From IMG/VR virus record IMGVR_UViG_3300030090_002310, positions 1 to 21,614 of that record: a stretch of 21,614 nucleotides of DNA. One strand, 5' to 3'. The notes under the pieces were generated by a model that searched no databases, had not been told where the DNA came from, and saw nothing but the letters and a program-made list of their open reading frames with translations. This DNA comes from a virus. The stretch's first letter is position 1, and the number at the start of each line of letters is the position of its first letter. Made by a program: the position numbers and the translations under genes. Positions 1,119-14,961 of this stretch are shown here, piece by piece.

Positions 1119-1328
1119 TCACCGCGTCCACTTCTCGTAGGCACGTGTTGCCATTTTCTGCTTACTTCGACTCTTCCAATCGTTCTTCTGGTTGCTTGTA
1201 CGCATTAAAGCGTCTTCCACAAGACCATCAATGCACTTCGGGCACACCATACCACTGCTGGTGCTCTGTAACGTGATGACTCCCTTGGAGTCGCTACCAC
1301 CCTCTCGTTCGCAGACTACGCACTTCAT
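1119..1328 (-). CDS. Small two-Cys-pair zinc-binding protein, 69 residues
   Basis: The protein opens with C-V-V-C at residues 3-6 and has C-P-K-C at residues 30-33, which is a simple zinc-ribbon. The C-terminal 30 residues are Lys and Arg rich and probably disordered or nucleic-acid binding. The start codon overlaps the stop of the chaperonin gene by one base (TAATG), so translation is probably coupled to it. An AGAGGGG site inside the end of the chaperonin gene sits 7 bases before the ATG. Whether it works with the chaperonin is unknown. No family is recognised. Confidence 0.8.
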   Translation of the reverse strand: MKCVVCEREGGSDSKGVITLQSTSSGMVCPKCIDGLVEDALMRTSNQKNDWKSRSKQKMATRAYEKWTR

Positions 1329-2851
1329 TACTCGCCCCTCTTAGCAATCATATCGTCAATCTTGAGTATGGCTGTGGTAACTTCCGTAGCGCTCAGCACG
1401 GCTTGTCTGACTAGGGACGTCGGTTCTAACACACCTAGGTTCCACATGGAGATGACACCCCCGTCCTCTATGTTGGGACCATATTCGGTCTCATGGCTCT
1501 GCAACTTGTGCCTGAGATTGAGTATGCAGTCCAGTGGGTCATGGCCGCCGTTCTCAGCAATTGTCGCTGGGATTATCTCCAGTGCATCTGCAAACGCCTC
1601 TATCGCCATCTGGGCGCGTCCCTCCACGCTCGCTGCTTGCGTACGTAGATGTGCAGCCATGGCCGCGTATGCGCTCCCCCCTCCTGCAACGACCCCATCA
1701 CCATTCATGACGAGGCTGACCACACCTAGTGCGTCATCGAAGCCACGCTCGATTTCATCTAGCGTCGTGGTCGTTGCGCCACGTAGGACGAGAGTGGATT
1801 GGTCCGAGTCTATCTCCCCTTGTACGAAGAGGTAATCCACATCGTAGTGCCTCTCGCTGTAGACCATGCCCTTCGCTGAGCACTCGACGTCCGCCGGGGT
1901 CTGAGATACTGATACGCCCAGTGTGGATGACAATGCGCGCATGGTGCTCTCTGGTAGCCTTCTGACCACGCTTATTTCGTGCTTTTCTAGGTAAGTGCAC
2001 ACATGGTCCGCTGCTCCGTCTCTGACGAACACCATACCTCCCTCAGGCAGATACTCGACTAGCATCTTAGCCTGTGATAGCAAGTCCTCCTCGCCCTGCG
2101 ATTTGAACTGGCTGTAACCCTGCATATCGAGTTGCACTGTCACGTTCTCATCAGTCTTCTGTGGTTCGAGACCAGTGTTAATCAGAACGATGTGTTGACT
2201 CTTTTCTAACTCCGTCTCTAGGACGGGCATTTTATTGACAATGGCTCCATTGAATAGGTAGGAGTCTCTCAACGACCCACCCGGCAGCGGTAGCACACGC
2301 ACCTTCTCTGCACTACCTGCCTTCTGCACTGCTTGTACGCATAGTTCCGCGACGTCATCCAAAGCGGCATCCACTGTCTTGCCTGTGATGGCAGTGCGAG
2401 CGATGTCCTTCAAGTCGAAAGCGTACTTACCTTCCTTAGCATGAAAGGTCTCTCCCTCTCCTACGGAGAGGTGACTGTCAAGATACGAGACTGCCATTGC
2501 CGCTGCTTGGTTGTAGCCATTGCACACGATGTTAGGATGCAGGCCCTTGTTGAGCAGGCCCTCGCTATTGCCCAGCATTTCCCCAGTCAGTACGACAGTT
2601 GATGTGGTGCCGTCATAGCACAGGCTCTCTTGCGTCTTTGCGCCTTCGATAATCATCTTCCCTCCGGGGTGGGAGACATCCAGTTCTCCCATGATTGTAG
2701 CCCCGTCGTTGGTTACAACTGCGTTACCAGCAGCGTCTACCATCATCTTGTCCCTTCCTAGCGGACCGAGTGTGGATTTCACCGTGCCCACTATCATCTT
2801 CGCCGCGTTTATGTTCTTCCTCAATGTCCCTTCGTTCTCCGTTTCAGTCAT
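1328..2851 (-). CDS. Group II chaperonin (thermosome / CCT-like)
   Basis: This 507-residue protein is a clear group II chaperonin, the archaeal and eukaryotic ring ATPase that folds proteins in the cytoplasm. Seen are the N-terminal equatorial motif S-T-L-G-P-x-G-x-D-K-M near residues 26-37, N-D-G-A-T at 48-52, D-G-T-T at 80-83, the M-P / L-E-x-x-K-T apical-intermediate region near 208-233, G-G-G-S-A at 391-395 and the C-terminal I-L-K-I-D-D-M-I near the end. It is shorter than host thermosomes (about 540-550), mainly because the N-terminus is trimmed and there is no Gly-Met-rich tail. Usual G-D-G-T-T reads Y-D-G-T-T, and the Glu normally after G-G-G-A is missing. A GGAGGA ribosome binding site precedes the ATG. 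The gene lies between replication genes and zinc-ribbon genes. Virus-encoded thermosomes are known from magroviruses; the likely role is folding virion or replication proteins. Confidence 0.95.
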   Translation of the reverse strand: MTETENEGTLRKNINAAKMIVGTVKSTLGPLGRDKMMVDAAGNAVVTNDGATIMGELDVSHPGGKMIIEGAKTQESLCYDGTTSTVVLTGEMLGNSEGLLNKGLHPNIVCNGYNQAAAMAVSYLDSHLSVGEGETFHAKEGKYAFDLKDIARTAITGKTVDAALDDVAELCVQAVQKAGSAEKVRVLPLPGGSLRDSYLFNGAIVNKMPVLETELEKSQHIVLINTGLEPQKTDENVTVQLDMQGYSQFKSQGEEDLLSQAKMLVEYLPEGGMVFVRDGAADHVCTYLEKHEISVVRRLPESTMRALSSTLGVSVSQTPADVECSAKGMVYSERHYDVDYLFVQGEIDSDQSTLVLRGATTTTLDEIERGFDDALGVVSLVMNGDGVVAGGGSAYAAMAAHLRTQAASVEGRAQMAIEAFADALEIIPATIAENGGHDPLDCILNLRHKLQSHETEYGPNIEDGGVISMWNLGVLEPTSLVRQAVLSATEVTTAILKIDDMIAKRGE

Positions 2852-5907: not shown

Positions 5908-6121
5908 TCTCTCTCATCCTCCTATGCATTCCACAGTATTCAGACCCATCTGCCTTTCTCAATTTGCACCGTTTCTTGCTGGTGGCTATGGCAATACACT
6001 GGTCTTCTTCTTTGGGGTTACCCCAACAAACCTGACACAGCCCACGGCTCTTGTAACCGTTCTTCTTCCTGTTATGATTTCTAGCACGCAGTTTTGTACC
6101 ACACTGCTTGCATCGCATCAT
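5900..6121 (-). CDS. Small zinc-finger protein with a C-x-x-H module, 73 residues
   Basis: Two Cys pairs near the N-terminus (C4-x-x-C7 and C29-x-x-C32) form a zinc-ribbon. The C-terminal half has a separate Cys pattern, Q-C-I-A then K-R-C-K then Y-C-G-M-H, which resembles the short cysteine module (DUF5763-like) that ends in C-x-x-H. The protein is highly basic in the N-terminal half. The start is coupled to the primase stop by ATGA. No function is known; nucleic-acid binding is likely given the charge and its place between the primase and XPF-like genes. Confidence 0.8.
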   Translation of the reverse strand: MMRCKQCGTKLRARNHNRKKNGYKSRGLCQVCWGNPKEEDQCIAIATSKKRCKLRKADGSEYCGMHRRMRENG

Positions 6122-7212
6122 GCTAAATCCTCTCCTGTGCCATCATAGAACTCACACTTACCCGTACAAAGACCCTCAACCATGAGCGTCTTACAGTTCG
6201 CATGATTGTAGCCCTTGTAAACTATGCTCTCAACCTGAGTTCGAGTGATGTCCTCGTTCCAATCGACCCAACCCTGCTCTGAGCATATCTGCACTATTTC
6301 CTCTACGTGCTTGTCCTTCTCCTCCATGCTCACTGACTCTGCCGGGAAGAACCATCTCATCCTGTCTGCTAGGTATGATGCTAGGTGATACCTCGCTCTG
6401 TGTATGGGATTGCCCTCTCCTAAGGCCGCTTGTGCTAGGCACGGGAGAATCTTCATGTTGTGTAGGGTGATTGTGGGCAACTCGCCAATCTTCTTCCTCT
6501 TGGCCTTGAACGGGTTCCTCTTCTTCGGAAGTGTGAGTTTCAGGGGAGTCTCTCCCAGTTCTATGTACCCGCCTCTGGGCTCCTGTGCTAGTTCAAACAC
6601 ATCGTCTGCTGATAGGGTCATGACCTCCTCGCTGGTCAGTGGCGTCACCCAGCATCCCCGCTTGGAGTTGTAGGAATTGGGTATGCGTATCATGCCTGCT
6701 AAGTCAAAGGCCACAGTAGGGTCATTGGAAGGAAGGTCGAGTAAGGTATGCCATTTTGAGAGCAGTGTCTTTCCCGCGCTCTTTATCTGAGTGACTTCTA
6801 ACCCATCTGATGGTAGGAAGGTGTCAACGAGCCTGACCCAGATGTGGAACCCACCTCCGGTGAAGTAGATGTAGTGAAGGAAGTTATTCTCCATCAGATG
6901 CTTGTGCAGCCTCTTGACCTGTTCGTGCATGAACTCGAACTCGACGTCTGCACCTCTATCACGGAAGTCCTTGCAGTCGAAGTCCATTACGAAGTGACTG
7001 ACTATGGCGGAGTTGTACTCGGCTCTGTGATGCTTGGGCGGCTGGGTCTTCCTGTATCCGTATGCGGTGAAGTAGGCATTGCCCGCTCCGTTCTTGCCCT
7101 TCCAGTACTTCTCCAGTTCCTCCCAGTTCCTGACGATTCGTCGCCCACCGTGCCTGTTGTAAGCACTGATTTCTAGGACTTCTCTAGGGAAATCAAGTGG
7201 TACGAATGGCAT
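6118..7212 (-). CDS. Archaeo-eukaryotic primase with PriL-like C-terminal iron-sulphur region
   Basis: The N-terminal 200 residues carry the AEP primase motifs: D77-F-D79 (metal binding), T118-G-G-G-F-H123 (nucleotide-binding S-G-x-G-x-H motif) and a later D-L-A-G-M-I-R-I-P with the basic residue. The C-terminal part has four Cys (in L-P-C-L, I-C-S, N-C-K and the G-L-C-T-G-K-C end) spread around an R-x-x-L-A-x-Y-L segment and a Y-K-G-Y-N-H-A-N-C stretch. This is the layout of the PriL C-terminal Fe-S domain or PriCT, so catalytic and Fe-S parts are fused in one chain. It would make primers for the viral polymerase. The ATG at 7212, with GGTGA 4 bases upstream, is preferred over a GTG at 7242 that would overlap the upstream gene. 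Confidence 0.85.
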   Translation of the reverse strand: MPFVPLDFPREVLEISAYNRHGGRRIVRNWEELEKYWKGKNGAGNAYFTAYGYRKTQPPKHHRAEYNSAIVSHFVMDFDCKDFRDRGADVEFEFMHEQVKRLHKHLMENNFLHYIYFTGGGFHIWVRLVDTFLPSDGLEVTQIKSAGKTLLSKWHTLLDLPSNDPTVAFDLAGMIRIPNSYNSKRGCWVTPLTSEEVMTLSADDVFELAQEPRGGYIELGETPLKLTLPKKRNPFKAKRKKIGELPTITLHNMKILPCLAQAALGEGNPIHRARYHLASYLADRMRWFFPAESVSMEEKDKHVEEIVQICSEQGWVDWNEDITRTQVESIVYKGYNHANCKTLMVEGLCTGKCEFYDGTGEDLA

Positions 7213-8941: not shown

Positions 8942-11329
8942 TCACCAGTATTTCTTCGGCTTGGATGCCCCTGAGGCTTCGTCCAAATCCCATCCTAGTA
9001 CGGAGTACAACACCTTCAACTTAGCCTTGATGAACTTCTCCACTACAACGGGATAGTCTATCTCAAAGCCCTCTATCTCCTCAGAGTTCCTGAACCCAAC
9101 CACATTGGTATTCGGTTTGTTCTCCGGGGTACCCACCACATACAACCAGCGTACACTGTCTCCGGTTCTATAGGGCATATCTGGGTTGATGTGCTCGTTG
9201 TAGTAGTACGCGCCCCTGACTGCCATCGGAGGGGTACCCTCGTACTTCTCCTTTCCTATGCGACCGTAGGGGGCTAACTCATCCACGCTCAGTTCGCCCT
9301 TGAGAGCGCTCACTGCTATGGGCCTGATAGTTTGGTTTACCTCCTCCTCGTCATGCCCGTTGCCCACCATGTCGAACACCTTGCCTTGTACGAGTTTCGT
9401 CAGTGGTGAGGCATTGGATGACTTGAGTGCAAACCCAGTCACCTTCATCGTGCCCTTCTTGTTCTCAGGCCAAGTGATGATGCCGAAGTTTCTATTCTTC
9501 ACGTCAGCAGTGGTCCAGTAGTCGAAGTAAGCCTCGAACTCCAACTTCATCGTAGGTAAGTCGAACTTATTGCGTATCACCTTATTCAGTTGCGATATAA
9601 GGTCCTCGACTTCATCGAATGGAATCTGAATGTAACCCGAGTCAGTGTGACCAGCGAGTGCTCGATAACCCATGGCCTCACTCTCAGTCAGCAGGGTCTC
9701 TATGCACTTCCTGCCGTAGTAAGTGATAGTCGCACCGACATCCGGGTCTATCCATCCACCACCGACTCTCCTCTGTGAGACGTAACCGTACATGGCATTC
9801 GTTGCCACCTTGACTGCTAGTTGTAGCATGTCGTATTGGAAAGCCTCATCTTCCGTCTCTGCATCCTTCATCTTCTGCTTGTACTCTTTCCTGAGTTCCA
9901 TCATGTCATTGACTATTGCAGGTAGGATGCCGACCTTGCTCTTATCCCAGTGTGTGCCATTGCCCACGCTCCTGATGTCGTTGGACACCCTGTTTCCTTC
10001 CACATACATCTCACCACCACGTCGCTTCGTGGTGACGCACAGGTTGGCATCGAGTATGATTCTAGGGTACATGGAGGCGAAGTCAATCAGAGCCACGCCT
10101 TCCCAGCGACCCGGTTTGGTCTCAGCGACAGTGGCGGCAGTGAGAGTGTCCCTCTGCCTGTTGAATAGTGTAGGGGCCTTGAGTGGTGTACGACGTGCGA
10201 ACTGCCCCCGTAGGTAGTTAGTCACGTTGTGTGTGCTTTGGAATCTGACGCCATGTGCCTTCTGCATGGCTATGAAGAATGGGATGGCATTGAGTTTCTC
10301 AGAGCATCTCCTCAGTAGGGTGGTGTCCCTCACGCAGTAATCGACGAACTCATTGAAGTTGTCCGTCCACCATGTGAATACATCGGCATCCATCTTGGCC
10401 CCTTCCTCCCCGAACTCCTTGTCGAGTTGTAGTTCCTCTGCTATGGTAGCGAGTTTCCTATCCCTGAACTGCCCCTTGCCACCTTTCTGCCACAGTGTCT
10501 CGAGCCCCCCACCTGATTGCCATGGTAGTGCTGTGTCAAAGCACAGTCTACCTAGTATGGGCTGGGCATTGTCTCTGTATCCTTTTTTCTTCCGTGGCTT
10601 TATCACTTGGTTTATCGGGCTTAGTCTATTAGCGTCATCAAGCCGTTTCATCAATTGCGGTAGGTCAGCCCACAGCAGTGCATGTGCAATCAGTATGTCG
10701 GGGTCACACTCCTCGAGGTGCTTCAAGAACGCCTCGTGCATGTCCTTCTCATTGGTGAACATGTAGAGCATGTACCCGCCTTCCTTCTCTATGAAGTCCA
10801 TCCACTCACTGTCCACCTCTAGGTTCCAAGCGAACACAACGGGGTTGTCGGCATGTGTATCGTCAATCGCTATCATGGTGGTAGCGCCCTCTTCCACGCA
10901 GCCATTCGGCTGCCACTCCATATCGAAGTACCATATCCTCGGTGTGAAGTCTGGTATGTCATTGACATTGGGGAACGTGTGGAACATGATTTGGTCCTCG
11001 TAGGGAGTGTCTGCCTCGTACGTGGTCATCTCATTCTTGATTTCATACAGGACCGTGGGATTGGTGCAATCAAGCCTCATCAGTTCAGTGCCATCTGAAC
11101 CAGTCGCAGTCAGGTCAGGGTGATATGTGACACCCGGATAGCGAGAGATTACACGACCCAGTCTTCTGTTATTGATTTGCGCTGGCACCCAGCAGTGTGG
11201 TGGGATGTACCCCTCATCGAATGGGGCAATCGTCTCCGTCGTCAATCCCTTCTCCGTTCTCGTACGCAGGTAGATGCTGGGCCATCCCACATCGTCCCAG
11301 CCGTTGGGATGGTAGTAGTCGACAATCAT
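8942..11329 (-). CDS. polB: Family B DNA polymerase
   Basis: The 795-residue protein has the family B order. Exonuclease motifs: D136-x-E138 in F-D-M-E-W, Exo II with W-A-D near 220-222, and Exo III Y330-C-V-R-D334. Polymerase motifs: A at D416-F-A-S-M-Y-P, B at K507-V-A-T-N-A-M-Y-G, and C at 560-564, which reads G-H-T-D-S rather than the usual G-D-T-D-S. A later K-S-S-N-A-S block matches the thumb-region Lys motif. D416 and D563 are the metal-binding residues, so polymerization should be possible. The Exo II Asn is missing, which may weaken proofreading. It would be the main replicative polymerase of the virus. The ATG overlaps the upstream gene (ATGA), and the clamp gene is one gene further upstream. 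Confidence 0.95.
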   Translation of the reverse strand: MIVDYYHPNGWDDVGWPSIYLRTRTEKGLTTETIAPFDEGYIPPHCWVPAQINNRRLGRVISRYPGVTYHPDLTATGSDGTELMRLDCTNPTVLYEIKNEMTTYEADTPYEDQIMFHTFPNVNDIPDFTPRIWYFDMEWQPNGCVEEGATTMIAIDDTHADNPVVFAWNLEVDSEWMDFIEKEGGYMLYMFTNEKDMHEAFLKHLEECDPDILIAHALLWADLPQLMKRLDDANRLSPINQVIKPRKKKGYRDNAQPILGRLCFDTALPWQSGGGLETLWQKGGKGQFRDRKLATIAEELQLDKEFGEEGAKMDADVFTWWTDNFNEFVDYCVRDTTLLRRCSEKLNAIPFFIAMQKAHGVRFQSTHNVTNYLRGQFARRTPLKAPTLFNRQRDTLTAATVAETKPGRWEGVALIDFASMYPRIILDANLCVTTKRRGGEMYVEGNRVSNDIRSVGNGTHWDKSKVGILPAIVNDMMELRKEYKQKMKDAETEDEAFQYDMLQLAVKVATNAMYGYVSQRRVGGGWIDPDVGATITYYGRKCIETLLTESEAMGYRALAGHTDSGYIQIPFDEVEDLISQLNKVIRNKFDLPTMKLEFEAYFDYWTTADVKNRNFGIITWPENKKGTMKVTGFALKSSNASPLTKLVQGKVFDMVGNGHDEEEVNQTIRPIAVSALKGELSVDELAPYGRIGKEKYEGTPPMAVRGAYYYNEHINPDMPYRTGDSVRWLYVVGTPENKPNTNVVGFRNSEEIEGFEIDYPVVVEKFIKAKLKVLYSVLGWDLDEASGASKPKKYW

Positions 11330-11607
11330 TCTTCCTCACCTCCGTAGATGGTGGGATGTCCTAGGTAGACCCAAGTGGCGTTTGTGTCTGTCAAATGAAA
11401 CTGTGGGTGCACCCTGAGGAGATTCGAGAGTTGCATTGGTGTGGAGGCCACGCTCTTGTGTATCTTCCCATTCACCCCTCTGTAGGAAGCCATGTAGTCT
11501 AGCAACTCAGAGAGGTGAAAGGGTATACCGATACCCTTCATCATACCGAATCGAATCATTGCCTTACGCTTGTAGATGTGCTTGTGTATCCCTGCCATCC
11601 TACTCAC
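11326..11607 (-). CDS. Hypothetical protein between clamp and polymerase, 93 residues
   Basis: This protein is not recognised. The first 50 residues are basic with a H-L-S-E-L-L-D-Y helix, and S-T-P-M-Q-L-S-N-L-L-R-V near residue 55 could be the recognition helix of a winged helix-turn-helix. The C-terminus is acidic. Both ends overlap neighbours by ATGA (PCNA-like clamp upstream, polymerase downstream), so the three are probably made together. A DNA-binding accessory role is possible but only inferred from position and the weak helix-turn-helix appearance. Confidence 0.75.
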   Translation of the reverse strand: MSRMAGIHKHIYKRKAMIRFGMMKGIGIPFHLSELLDYMASYRGVNGKIHKSVASTPMQLSNLLRVHPQFHLTDTNATWVYLGHPTIYGGEEE

Positions 11608-12368
11608 TCCTCTTGGTCTATCACTATCAGCAGCCTGTAAGCCCCTGCTCTCTGTTGCTCAATAATCAATGCAGTAGATGGGCCGAAGTGTATCTTGCTC
11701 TCCCTTGGTTCTAGGTAGCCCAAGCATGGAAGCAACCATGCTCCGTAGTGCGAGGTCACGCTGTATGCGGGACCTTGGGTATCTGTCAGATTCGTAGTGG
11801 CGAACAGGCGTATGTCATGCTGCTTGCCAGCCTGAATCGAAATCTCACCGCTCTCCGCATTCGCCTTCACGCTGTAGTCGGCCCCTGTGTTGAGGAGTTT
11901 CTTCAACGAGGAGAGTTTGAGCATCTCGGACAAATCAGCAGTACCATGGATGGGGTAATTCCCTTGACCGAATGACTCCCACATATTCTCTATGGAGGCT
12001 GATACCAAGTTCTCGTAGGTCGGAACGAGTTTGATGCTCGTGCAGTCGGTGACTGGTAATTGCATCTTGAGTTCGTTGTTGGTGATATACAGGGTCTTAC
12101 CGTTGCTTATCTGCTTGAAGGTCACATCACCACTGCACTTGCGCAGGAATATGCATACCTTGTCCAAGTCCGAGATGATGATGGTGCCGCCCTTCGTGAC
12201 CGCGCCCTCATACGACTCCGTGACTGTGAAGAAATGTGTCTGGTAACCCACGCTGTAGGCCAACTGATGACCCATCTCGACTATTCTGAGACTCAAATCA
12301 TTTATTGCGCTATCAAACTGGCCTAAGTGCTTGAGCCACTCCTTGCTGTCCAGTGTGATACTTGCCAT
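11604..12368 (-). CDS. PCNA-like sliding clamp
   Basis: At 254 residues it has the usual PCNA length. The strand-rich pattern, with a central T-Y-E-N-L linker region near residues 130-145 and repeated beta segments in both halves, fits the two-domain clamp fold, although sequence similarity is low and the C-terminal end (I-V-I-D-Q-E-E) differs from the typical A-P-K/R-I-E. The call leans on genomic position: it lies between the RecA-like gene and the polymerase, and the genome also has a clamp loader that needs a clamp. It would form a ring on DNA and hold the polymerase. An unrelated beta-rich protein cannot be fully excluded. It follows the RecA-like C-terminal gene by 9 bases. Confidence 0.7.
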   Translation of the reverse strand: MASITLDSKEWLKHLGQFDSAINDLSLRIVEMGHQLAYSVGYQTHFFTVTESYEGAVTKGGTIIISDLDKVCIFLRKCSGDVTFKQISNGKTLYITNNELKMQLPVTDCTSIKLVPTYENLVSASIENMWESFGQGNYPIHGTADLSEMLKLSSLKKLLNTGADYSVKANAESGEISIQAGKQHDIRLFATTNLTDTQGPAYSVTSHYGAWLLPCLGYLEPRESKIHFGPSTALIIEQQRAGAYRLLIVIDQEE

Positions 12369-12377
12369 GTTATCATC

Positions 12378-13100
12378 TCACAGTTTCTCCAGTTCGGGTA
12401 GCCCGAGCCAGTTCGGGGTCTTGCCCTGCTCGGTGACGAGGATGATGCTCCTCTGTCCCTGTAGCATGGCATTGGTCTTGCTCTTCTCGAATGTAGCAGT
12501 GTACTCCGAGCGTATGACACGCCCGTCCTCACCCTCCATGTCGTTCCTCTCGCACAGGACGATTTGGAACATGTAGTTGCTAGATGACTTCTCCCAAGCA
12601 GGCTTCCAAGAGGCAGCCGTATCCTCGTTCCTCCCCTGAGTGTAGTTCGTCATCTTCAAGTGGGTCTCCCAGAATACACGCACGCCTCTTTTGACGAGTG
12701 CACGACACAGTGCTGTCAGTTGGTGGAATCGTGTGGTCCTAATCTGCCAGTCCCACTGGTTCTGTATTCTAGTGCCCTGTCCCGCGCCTCTGTTGTCTGC
12801 CGCCTCGATACCATCCTTGGCTAGACCTAGGTCGGTGATTCTCATGTTGTTCTGACAGATGTTGTCCCACAGGTCTATGCCAGTGATGTGCACGCCCCAT
12901 AGGGTCTCGTGCTCGTTCACTAGGAACTGCATGATGGACATCACCCTGTCATGTGTAGCAGGGTAGTCGTAAGCGGTCCTGTCACCCTTCTGCATGACCC
13001 AAGGGTCCCAGCATCTGATGTTGTCGTTGTTGGGATAGAATGCTGACTTGGTCCCAGCACCACCACCATCGAAATCAATTACAGCGAGCATCTTGGTCAT
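12378..13100 (-). CDS. RecA/RadA (Sak4)-like ATPase, Walker B half
   Basis: This 240-residue protein starts where a RecA-fold ATPase normally reaches its second core strand: A-V-I-D9-F-D11-G-G matches the strand carrying the catalytic acidic residue, and I-T-G-I-D76-L-W-D is a Walker B strand. A basic loop with R-T-T-R-F-H-Q near 120 and a V-F-W-E-T-H-L strand near 143 follow the core pattern. There is no P-loop in it. The P-loop is in the preceding gene (13097-13348), joined by an ATGA overlap with GGAGGG 7 bases before this ATG. The two products together would make one Sak4/RadA-like recombinase. The most likely mechanism is coupled re-initiation; a frameshift or an assembly error are alternatives. 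Confidence 0.8.
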   Translation of the reverse strand: MTKMLAVIDFDGGGAGTKSAFYPNNDNIRCWDPWVMQKGDRTAYDYPATHDRVMSIMQFLVNEHETLWGVHITGIDLWDNICQNNMRITDLGLAKDGIEAADNRGAGQGTRIQNQWDWQIRTTRFHQLTALCRALVKRGVRVFWETHLKMTNYTQGRNEDTAASWKPAWEKSSSNYMFQIVLCERNDMEGEDGRVIRSEYTATFEKSKTNAMLQGQRSIILVTEQGKTPNWLGLPELEKL

Positions 13101-13348
13101 TCGCTTCCCTCCTCATTGCAGTACTTCTGAAACGCATCGAATACGATACCAGTCTTACCAGTGTTCTCATGACCCACCAGAGCCATGAAGATGTGGGTCT
13201 TGGGGCCATGCTGGTGGAGTTGCTCGAACTCACTGCGCAAGTCCGAGAAGGGGTCTGCCCCCTCTCGCTTGTGCGCCGGAGTATCAGCACGCTCGGCTGC
13301 TATCTCCTGAGCAATCTCCTCTTTCTTGCTCTCACCGAATCCTGCCAT
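13097..13348 (-). CDS. RecA/RadA (Sak4)-like ATPase, Walker A half
   Basis: This 83-residue protein carries a complete P-loop, G59-H-E-N-T-G-K-T66, preceded by a strand (I-F-M-A-L-V) and followed by one helix, then stops. It therefore contains only the first strand, P-loop and first helix of a RecA-fold ATPase, plus a charged N-terminal 45 residues that look disordered. The rest of the fold is in the next gene. ATG 13348 is preferred over TTG 13351: it has GGTGA 6 bases upstream and overlaps the previous stop by one base (TGATG). The stop overlaps the Walker B gene by ATGA. Alone it cannot be a functional ATPase. Confidence 0.8.
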   Translation of the reverse strand: MAGFGESKKEEIAQEIAAERADTPAHKREGADPFSDLRSEFEQLHQHGPKTHIFMALVGHENTGKTGIVFDAFQKYCNEEGSE

Positions 13349-13623
13349 CAATTCTCACCTTCTCTCTCCGCTGATGCTCTTCTTTGCTGCTCAGCCATTG
13401 CCTCGTTGAGTTCCTGCACGTCCCTCTTCACTTGAGCCAATGTTGCATCCACGTTATTCGCAAACCCTTCTAGTACCCTCAGGAATGCCAGCCTCTGCGT
13501 ATGCTCAGCCTGCAATTTCTGAGTTTGTTCTCTCAGTATATCGTATGCTTGCTGTTGGCTCGCAATCGTTGCCATATGCGCCTCTACTTCTTCTTCCAAT
13601 TGTTTCATCGTTTTCTTTGCCAT
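13348..13623 (-). CDS. Coiled-coil protein, 91 residues
   Basis: Most of this protein is a long amphipathic helix rich in Glu, Gln, Ala and Leu with heptad spacing (for example L-E-E-E-V-E-A-H and V-Q-E-L-N-E-A-M), so a coiled coil is likely. The ends are charged. A GGTGA site lies before the ATG, and the stop overlaps the Walker A gene by one base. It sits between the SSB-like protein and the RecA-like pair, so a structural or loading role in recombination is plausible, but no family is recognised. Confidence 0.75.
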   Translation of the reverse strand: MAKKTMKQLEEEVEAHMATIASQQQAYDILREQTQKLQAEHTQRLAFLRVLEGFANNVDATLAQVKRDVQELNEAMAEQQRRASAEREGEN

Positions 13624-13632
13624 ATTCTCACC

Positions 13633-14961
13633 TCAGTCGAATTGTCCCGAGCCAGTGTCACCACCGCCCATCCTGCGTCTCGAGCGTCTGTTGTCTGCAT
13701 AGACGCCCATGACCTTGATGTTCGGCAGTTGCTCACCGTCTCTAATGCTCATACCAATCCTACCGTAGACCAGAACTGTGCTCTTCTCGGCGTAGCCCCA
13801 CAGTTCGTCATCCACGTCCTCAAAGTGGAACGGGTTAGTCATGTCGTGACAGGCACTGCCTACCCAGCACATGACCTCGCTGCCGTTCCCACCTCCGTGT
13901 ATGTTCTGTAGACCCATGCTGGTGAGCGACAGGGAGTACCCCCTGCCGTCCTCGTCATACTCGTTGTCCCTGCCCTCGGTGTTCATCCTGCTGACAGTGC
14001 CCTTGGTGACGACGAGCGGTCCAGCCGCACCGTCCCTACCATCACTGCCTGTGAAGGTCCTCTTCCTCGACTCGTAAGCCTCCACCAGTTCGTCCAGTGG
14101 TACGTATAGGTCATCGACGAATTCCTCATCCGTCCAGAACTTGAACGGTTGAAGCAGTCTCTTCACATCATCGCTGACGAAGTCATTCGTGTATGCCATC
14201 GTCCTGTCGAAGTCCGAGTTAGTACCGAGGATGTCCTTGTAGTTGTCATTGGTCGATGTCGATTCCCTCACCTGTATGGTGCAGGGCACTCCTAGACGCA
14301 GGGTCATGTTCCTGTTGTCATCAGTCAGGTCTACTCTCCAAGTCTCCACCATGCCCTCGTTGACGAACCTGCTCTTCTCGTTGCCGAGGAAGTAAGCATA
14401 CCTACCCATCTGCGTATGTGGATAGGGGTTGCCCGCCTTGCTCAGGAGGCACAGCCAGTCATCACCCACTCGGAAACCGAGGGACGGAGGCTCCTCTACA
14501 GACTCCTCTGTCTCTATGACCTTGCTGGCTGTGTTGATGTGCCAAAAGGAGCCTTCCTTCATGTAGTGCCCGACTACACCGTCAGACACAGCCGAGTTGC
14601 TGTTCTCCTGCCACTTCTGCGAGGCATTCCTAACGAACCATGACCTCCTGTCGGATGTCCTCATGTCCACCCCTAGGAACTCACCTACGTAGGTGACTAG
14701 GTTGCTACCGCTACCACTCACGGTGGACCGCCTGTCCGCTGTGAAGAAGCCCTCGCTCCAATCCAGCAGAAGGTCCTCGTCCTCTACTCTCCAGTCATCA
14801 CACGCGTACGTATCGGTGATGTGCTGGATGAAGGACTGCGTCACCTTCTCCACTGATTCACTTGTTCTCTCGGCCTGCATCTGGAAGCGCTTCATCACTT
14901 CCTCAGGCCAGTCTTCATTCTTCATTCCCTTCTTGAAAGGGTTCTTTTCATCGTCACTCAT
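13633..14961 (-). CDS. OB-fold protein, candidate RPA-like single-stranded DNA-binding protein
   Basis: The 442-residue protein has a charged N-terminus, a long middle region, and a C-terminal domain (about 310-425) with strands V-T-K-G-T-V-S-R, Y-S-L-S-L-T, V-M-C-W-V-G, V-L-V-Y-G-R-I and N-I-K-V-M-G-V that fit an OB-fold of the RPA type. It ends with a basic stretch and a short Gly-rich acidic tail (G-S-G-Q-F-D), like the protein-binding tail of single-stranded DNA-binding proteins. The position between clamp loader and RecA-like genes supports a role in coating single-stranded DNA. There is no direct sequence match I can name, and its size is large for an SSB. Its start overlaps the clamp loader stop by ATGA. 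Confidence 0.55.
   Translation of the reverse strand: MSDDEKNPFKKGMKNEDWPEEVMKRFQMQAERTSESVEKVTQSFIQHITDTYACDDWRVEDEDLLLDWSEGFFTADRRSTVSGSGSNLVTYVGEFLGVDMRTSDRRSWFVRNASQKWQENSNSAVSDGVVGHYMKEGSFWHINTASKVIETEESVEEPPSLGFRVGDDWLCLLSKAGNPYPHTQMGRYAYFLGNEKSRFVNEGMVETWRVDLTDDNRNMTLRLGVPCTIQVRESTSTNDNYKDILGTNSDFDRTMAYTNDFVSDDVKRLLQPFKFWTDEEFVDDLYVPLDELVEAYESRKRTFTGSDGRDGAAGPLVVTKGTVSRMNTEGRDNEYDEDGRGYSLSLTSMGLQNIHGGGNGSEVMCWVGSACHDMTNPFHFEDVDDELWGYAEKSTVLVYGRIGMSIRDGEQLPNIKVMGVYADNRRSRRRMGGGDTGSGQFD

Follow-up and report, generated by a model that had tools for sequence, protein, structure and literature searches.

The RecA core is among the oldest and most conserved ATPase folds. To our knowledge, it is not known to be built from more than one chain, Walker A and Walker B otherwise lying close together. 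In the RecA/RadA/RAD51 superfamily, including RAD51C, RAD51D, and XRCC2, the core is on one polypeptide, and the Sak4/UvsX-like recombinases are also single chains. The Sak4 gene often adjoins an ssb gene (up to 80%; PMC5928155). Natural splitting occurs in archaeal RNA polymerase A'/A'' and in PolB. Nothing relevant to split RecA-like ATPases was found in the literature searched.

Here, we examined a 21,614-base IMG/VR virus contig (IMGVR_UViG_3300030090_002310, positions 1-21,614; hereafter the window), in which a predicted RecA-like ATPase is encoded by two overlapping cistrons. It is comparable to the split RNA polymerase and PolB in that one ancestral chain is represented by two gene products, presumed here to reassemble, whereas the viral cut lies inside one ATPase core and parts Walker A from Walker B. 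The likeness to the RecA/RadA/RAD51 superfamily consists of the predicted fold, the P-loop, the acidic beta-2 strand, and Walker B. The intact relatives conform to that superfamily also in having one polypeptide, whereas the window and 14 other contigs have two cistrons. Sak4/UvsX-like recombinases share the RecA-core-only size of the conserved domain and the viral replication/recombination setting; however, the window ATPase is in two chains and has no significant profile match to them. The features of the split gene are as follows.

13097 to 13348, minus strand: ORF1, 83 aa (translation); N-terminal helix region, beta-1, P-loop GHENTGKT, and Walker-A helix
12378 to 13100, minus strand: ORF2, 240 aa (translation); rest of the RecA core
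13097 to 13100, minus strand: ATGA stop/start overlap of ORF1 and ORF2, 4 nt (sequence)
13108 to 13112, minus strand: GGAGG Shine-Dalgarno-like site, 7 nt 5' of the ORF2 ATG (sequence)

The P-loop was located near the C-terminal end of ORF1, which terminates with ...GHENTGKTGIVFDAFQKYCNEEGSE before its stop codon; beta-1, the P-loop, and the Walker-A helix were placed by homology to the model of an intact relative, L021. ORF2 begins with MTKMLAVIDFDGGG and carries the acidic beta-2 strand (D9 and D11), Walker B (D76), and a WETH motif. When 28 homologues were aligned, D9 and D76 were invariant and D11 was nearly invariant. ATGA-type overlaps were also observed between several neighbouring genes, e.g. 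at 14958-14961, 11604-11607, 11326-11329, and 6118-6121.

Neither ORF1 nor ORF2 was recognised by Pfam or PHROGs, and no convincing family was obtained for the halves or the intact homologues from Pfam, PHROGs, NCBIfam, or PDB sequences. No homologue was found in a genome collection of 84,980 species or in a phage collection. The sequence libraries name no family, and the identity rests on structure models. An AlphaFold model of intact L021, built with 40 sequences (pLDDT 82, pTM 0.78), matched RecA/RAD51-family structures with a Foldseek E of 1.7e-10 and Z up to 17.8, the identity to the solved members being only 8-17%. In this model, residues 65-78 form the Walker-A helix and 84-89 the strand that follows, and the cut maps to the loop connecting them (79-83). 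The window ORF2, modelled alone, aligned to RAD51 residues 145 or 153 through 336 (Z 12.6) and to Sak4 8rc5 at Z 10.8. The alignment to RAD51 starts just after the Walker-A helix, so that ORF2 lacks only the P-loop part. The PHROG Sak4 profile (PHROG 124) gave only weak matches, with E 0.012 at best and in 3 of 40 members.

These results bear on an earlier note, which had described a RecA/Sak4-like ATPase from the sequence alone. Its two cistrons cut between Walker A and Walker B with an ATGA overlap, its ribosome site 7 bases before the second ATG, and its assignment of D9, D11, and D76 to ORF2 were all confirmed in the sequence, and the three residues are conserved across homologues. The reading as a RecA-like ATPase also held, given the RecA/RAD51 fold of the intact-relative model, whereas the Sak4 identity was not established by sequence profile. 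The spacing of about 20 residues from Walker A to the acidic residues was slightly low; K65 of the P-loop and D89/D91 of intact L021 are 24-26 residues apart.

Subsequently, the occurrence of the split in related viruses was examined. The same cut was present in at least 15 related contigs, namely the window, L001, and 13 others, and this recurrence in 14 other contigs indicates that the arrangement is more than chance. L001 (contig 3300030207_001848, also listed as L016) is a separate strain, with 93 positions differing from the window over 15.6 kb; the differences include a 3-base in-frame insertion in ORF2, while the junction is identical and the halves of both strains contain no stop codons. 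The larger split group consists of 13 contigs (L036, L037, L038, L039, L057, L069, L082, L092, L093, L094, L095, L097, and L152) with differing sample numbers and quite different junction sequences. At every split junction, an ATGA joins the ORF2 start to the end of the preceding ORF, with a Shine-Dalgarno-like site 4-10 nt 5' of the start (14 junctions were inspected in one comparison, and that of L039 from its own sequence). With the split present in two strains and throughout a separate clade, a sequencing error can in practice be dismissed; the split is a real, inherited feature, raw reads not being among the evidence. The earlier note had proposed looking for the same split in related viral contigs, and it was found in 14. 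The note had also held that unbroken genes in related viruses, with an extra or missing base in the reads, would mean an error; unbroken relatives do exist, so that only half of this was met. Its overall reading, a genuine split of a RecA-like ATPase, was supported by the checks that were run.

Separately, the differences between the window and L001 were clustered in patches at 6655-6961, 11398-11566, and 13337-13587, as recombination would give.

Taken together, these findings suggest that the two cistrons likely specify two translationally coupled polypeptides that assemble into a functional RecA-fold ATPase. Both polypeptides would be made from one message, and translation of ORF2, which has its own Shine-Dalgarno site, would probably begin by termination-reinitiation at the ATGA overlap. 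ORF1 is predicted to contribute beta-1, the P-loop, and the Walker-A helix, and ORF2 the rest of the core including acidic beta-2 and Walker B. Because beta-1 is a central strand in this class of P-loop ATPases, the ORF2 sheet would need ORF1 to occupy its centre; binding of the two chains would most likely be non-covalent, the ORF1 strand taking that position. The single ATP site thus rebuilt may act in viral DNA recombination or replication. Reinitiation, assembly, ATP hydrolysis, and the recombination role are all inferred, and there is neither a two-chain model nor biochemistry.

The history of the split was considered with the help of the intact relatives. An unbroken single ORF was observed in close and distant relatives (320-346 aa in the first ten examined), including L021 and L022, the nearest relatives of the window, which read YCNTGGDKILAVIDF where the window has YCNEEGSE / MTKMLAVIDF. 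The loop at the cut is longer in intact L020 and L032 and shorter in L034; this variation among intact members indicates that the cut site tolerates change. In the ATPase tree, the 13-contig split group was recovered together (100/100), and the window pair grouped with intact L021/L022 (98/94), a placement with which the DNA polymerase tree agreed (97/97). None of the 200 ATPase bootstrap trees had fewer than two changes. We therefore favour two independent splits at one loop, while one split followed by one re-fusion remains possible.

The re-fusion history, in which one old split was healed in the L021/L022 lineage, is compatible with the two-chain enzyme and is the alternative that survives best. 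In its favour, the polymerase tree unites the two split groups and L021/L022 (84/84), and one gain plus one loss on that tree amounts to two steps, equal to two gains. Against it, the ATPase tree has no branch that unites both split groups to the exclusion of intact L017-L020. A single split clade was also marginally rejected (AU p 0.044 for the ATPase tree and 0.030 for the DNA polymerase tree); however, the AU test does not exclude re-fusion. On balance, we regard re-fusion as the less probable of the two histories.

It is also conceivable that the split is a loss-of-function change and that the halves are decaying remnants of a broken gene. The window and L001 may be a young pair and are too similar for a selection test of their own, so that the selection result applies to the larger clade only. 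In addition, L039 (2752-3477) has, seven codons into ORF2, an in-frame TAA in place of the CAA of its near-twin L036; this one sign of breakage could be a real nonsense variant or, equally, an assembly slip. Against decay, dN/dS in the larger split clade was about 0.1 for ORF1 and 0.06 for ORF2, indicating strong purifying selection on both halves at near-saturating synonymous divergence. Between L036 and L038, more than 60% of the synonymous sites differ, with dN/dS of 0.10 in ORF1 and 0.07 in ORF2, comparable to the 0.05-0.10 of the intact genes; for L097 and L152, synonymous divergence is close to saturation and pN is 0.09 and 0.06. The P-loop is retained in every split ORF1 aligned and the acidic residues in ORF2, and the halves of the window and L001 are, as noted, free of stop codons. 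A broken gene is thus very unlikely. No second, intact copy was detected on any split contig searched; G004, G007, and G014 are 115.5, 110.9, and 102.1 kb long, respectively. The split contigs are not certified complete, and the rest of the genome or the host could still hold an intact one.

Another possibility is that the halves work apart, ORF2 being nucleotide-free or served by another P-loop partner and ORF1 acting as a separate regulator. Two observations favour this: ORF1 of the larger clade gained a tail of its own, and a complete DUF3846 gene of 107-108 aa can be inserted between the halves, as in the following contigs.

L057, 2752 to 3075: DUF3846 gene between the halves, Pfam E 2e-6
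L092, 2166 to 2492: DUF3846 gene between the halves, Pfam E 6.5e-11
L097, 2175 to 2501: DUF3846 gene between the halves, Pfam E 5.4e-8

The inserted gene overlaps both halves, ORF1 at its end and ORF2 at its start, the latter by ATGA. It is absent from L037, which is nearly identical to L057, and from L152, which is close to L097; very close relatives with and without the insert show that the gene comes and goes at the junction. Against separate functions, conservation extends to the complete P-loop of ORF1 as well as to the acidic ATP-site residues of ORF2, as would suit an ATP site formed jointly, and the strand missing from ORF2 would be central to its fold (an argument resting partly on general structural knowledge). 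We consider it highly improbable that the halves act separately.

Programmed ribosomal frameshifting, which would fuse both frames into one protein, is similarly hard to sustain. The frames overlap in the window, and a 16-nt stretch is available where a shift could occur. However, the 14 inspected junctions contain neither a slippery heptamer nor a long homopolymer, the ORF2 start codon of the L036 group is immediately preceded by a TAA in its own frame, and the whole DUF3846 gene between the halves rules out a frameshift fusion in L057, L092, and L097. A split intein was also considered and rejected: the ORF1 tails past the helix are only about 6-20 aa, too short judging from the usual sizes of inteins.

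The weakest alternative, a sequencing or assembly error in a truly unbroken gene, is suggested by the intact relatives, including the window's nearest, but is all but excluded, even without raw-read data, by the identical junction in a distinct strain and the different junction sequences of the 13 other split contigs.

Returning to the two-chain enzyme, we examined the ORF1 tail of the larger split group. In four distinct sequences, [RK]QT[TNK]LxxF was found 5-7 residues from the ORF1 C-terminus. These PCNA-box-like tails are at the C-terminal ends of the following ORFs.

L036, 2501 to 2755: ORF1 with PCNA-box-like tail
L038, 2501 to 2755: ORF1 with PCNA-box-like tail
L092, 1910 to 2173: ORF1 with PCNA-box-like tail
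L093, 2226 to 2495: ORF1 with PCNA-box-like tail

The tail is present in most members of the larger clade and absent in the window, L001, L097, and L152. The PIP box consensus is Qxx[aliphatic]xx[aromatic][aromatic] (PMC6881253; see also PMC3504372), as in RQTSMTDFY of p21; the ORF1 tails are similar, but the second aromatic is missing. When each tail was shuffled, a motif of this kind arose in about 0.1-1.3% of the cases, and the tails are related by descent rather than independent. The idea leans partly on a downstream 254-aa gene being a sliding clamp, for which Pfam, a PDB sequence profile, and a search of nine contigs with PCNA_N gave no confirmation; a host clamp could possibly be the partner instead. 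A bolder joint reading, which we offer only as a possibility, is that the two independent same-loop splits were adaptive and that regulation acts on the in-trans assembly of the ATP site, the larger-clade tail having become clamp-binding and bringing the recombinase to the fork, with DUF3846 as an optional third partner.

If the P-loop strand and helix are indeed a stable separate protein, a RecA core can be assembled in trans. The locus would then serve as a naturally occurring split protein for which unbroken sister genes provide the controls, and the origin of new subunit interfaces by gene fission could be studied in it. It also points to a blind spot: annotation would overlook this split ATPase, as Pfam and PHROGs recognise neither of its halves.

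Finally, we compared the gene neighbourhood. The order of RFC-like AAA ATPase, 442-aa protein, ~90-aa protein, ATPase, and ~254-aa protein was alike in the split and intact viruses, sometimes with a small extra gene within it, and PolB is just downstream in the window. The relevant genes of the window are listed below.

13348 to 13623, minus strand: 91-aa gene, upstream, overlapping the ORF1 start by 1 nt; conserved neighbour
11604 to 12368, minus strand: 254-aa gene, conserved downstream; no Pfam match, a clamp only guessed from position and size
13633 to 14961, minus strand: 442-aa gene, conserved neighbour; no Pfam match, an SSB only guessed from position and size
1328 to 2851, minus strand: TCP-1/cpn60 family chaperonin, Pfam E 2.3e-114

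The window also encodes ERCC4 and PD-(D/E)XK nucleases. Magroviruses are described as having PolB, an ERCC4-type nuclease, and related replication genes (PMC10160649); the literature examined on them does not mention this ATPase or the split, and no named magrovirus was among the PolB matches listed from the phage collection. The likeness of the window to them comprises PolB, ERCC4, PD-(D/E)XK, the RFC-like ATPase, and the TCP-1 chaperonin, and by gene content, with no named magrovirus record compared, it fits the magroviruses (PMC10160649, PMC12999244). The carriers of the split ATPase are ocean viruses whose hosts are probably archaea.
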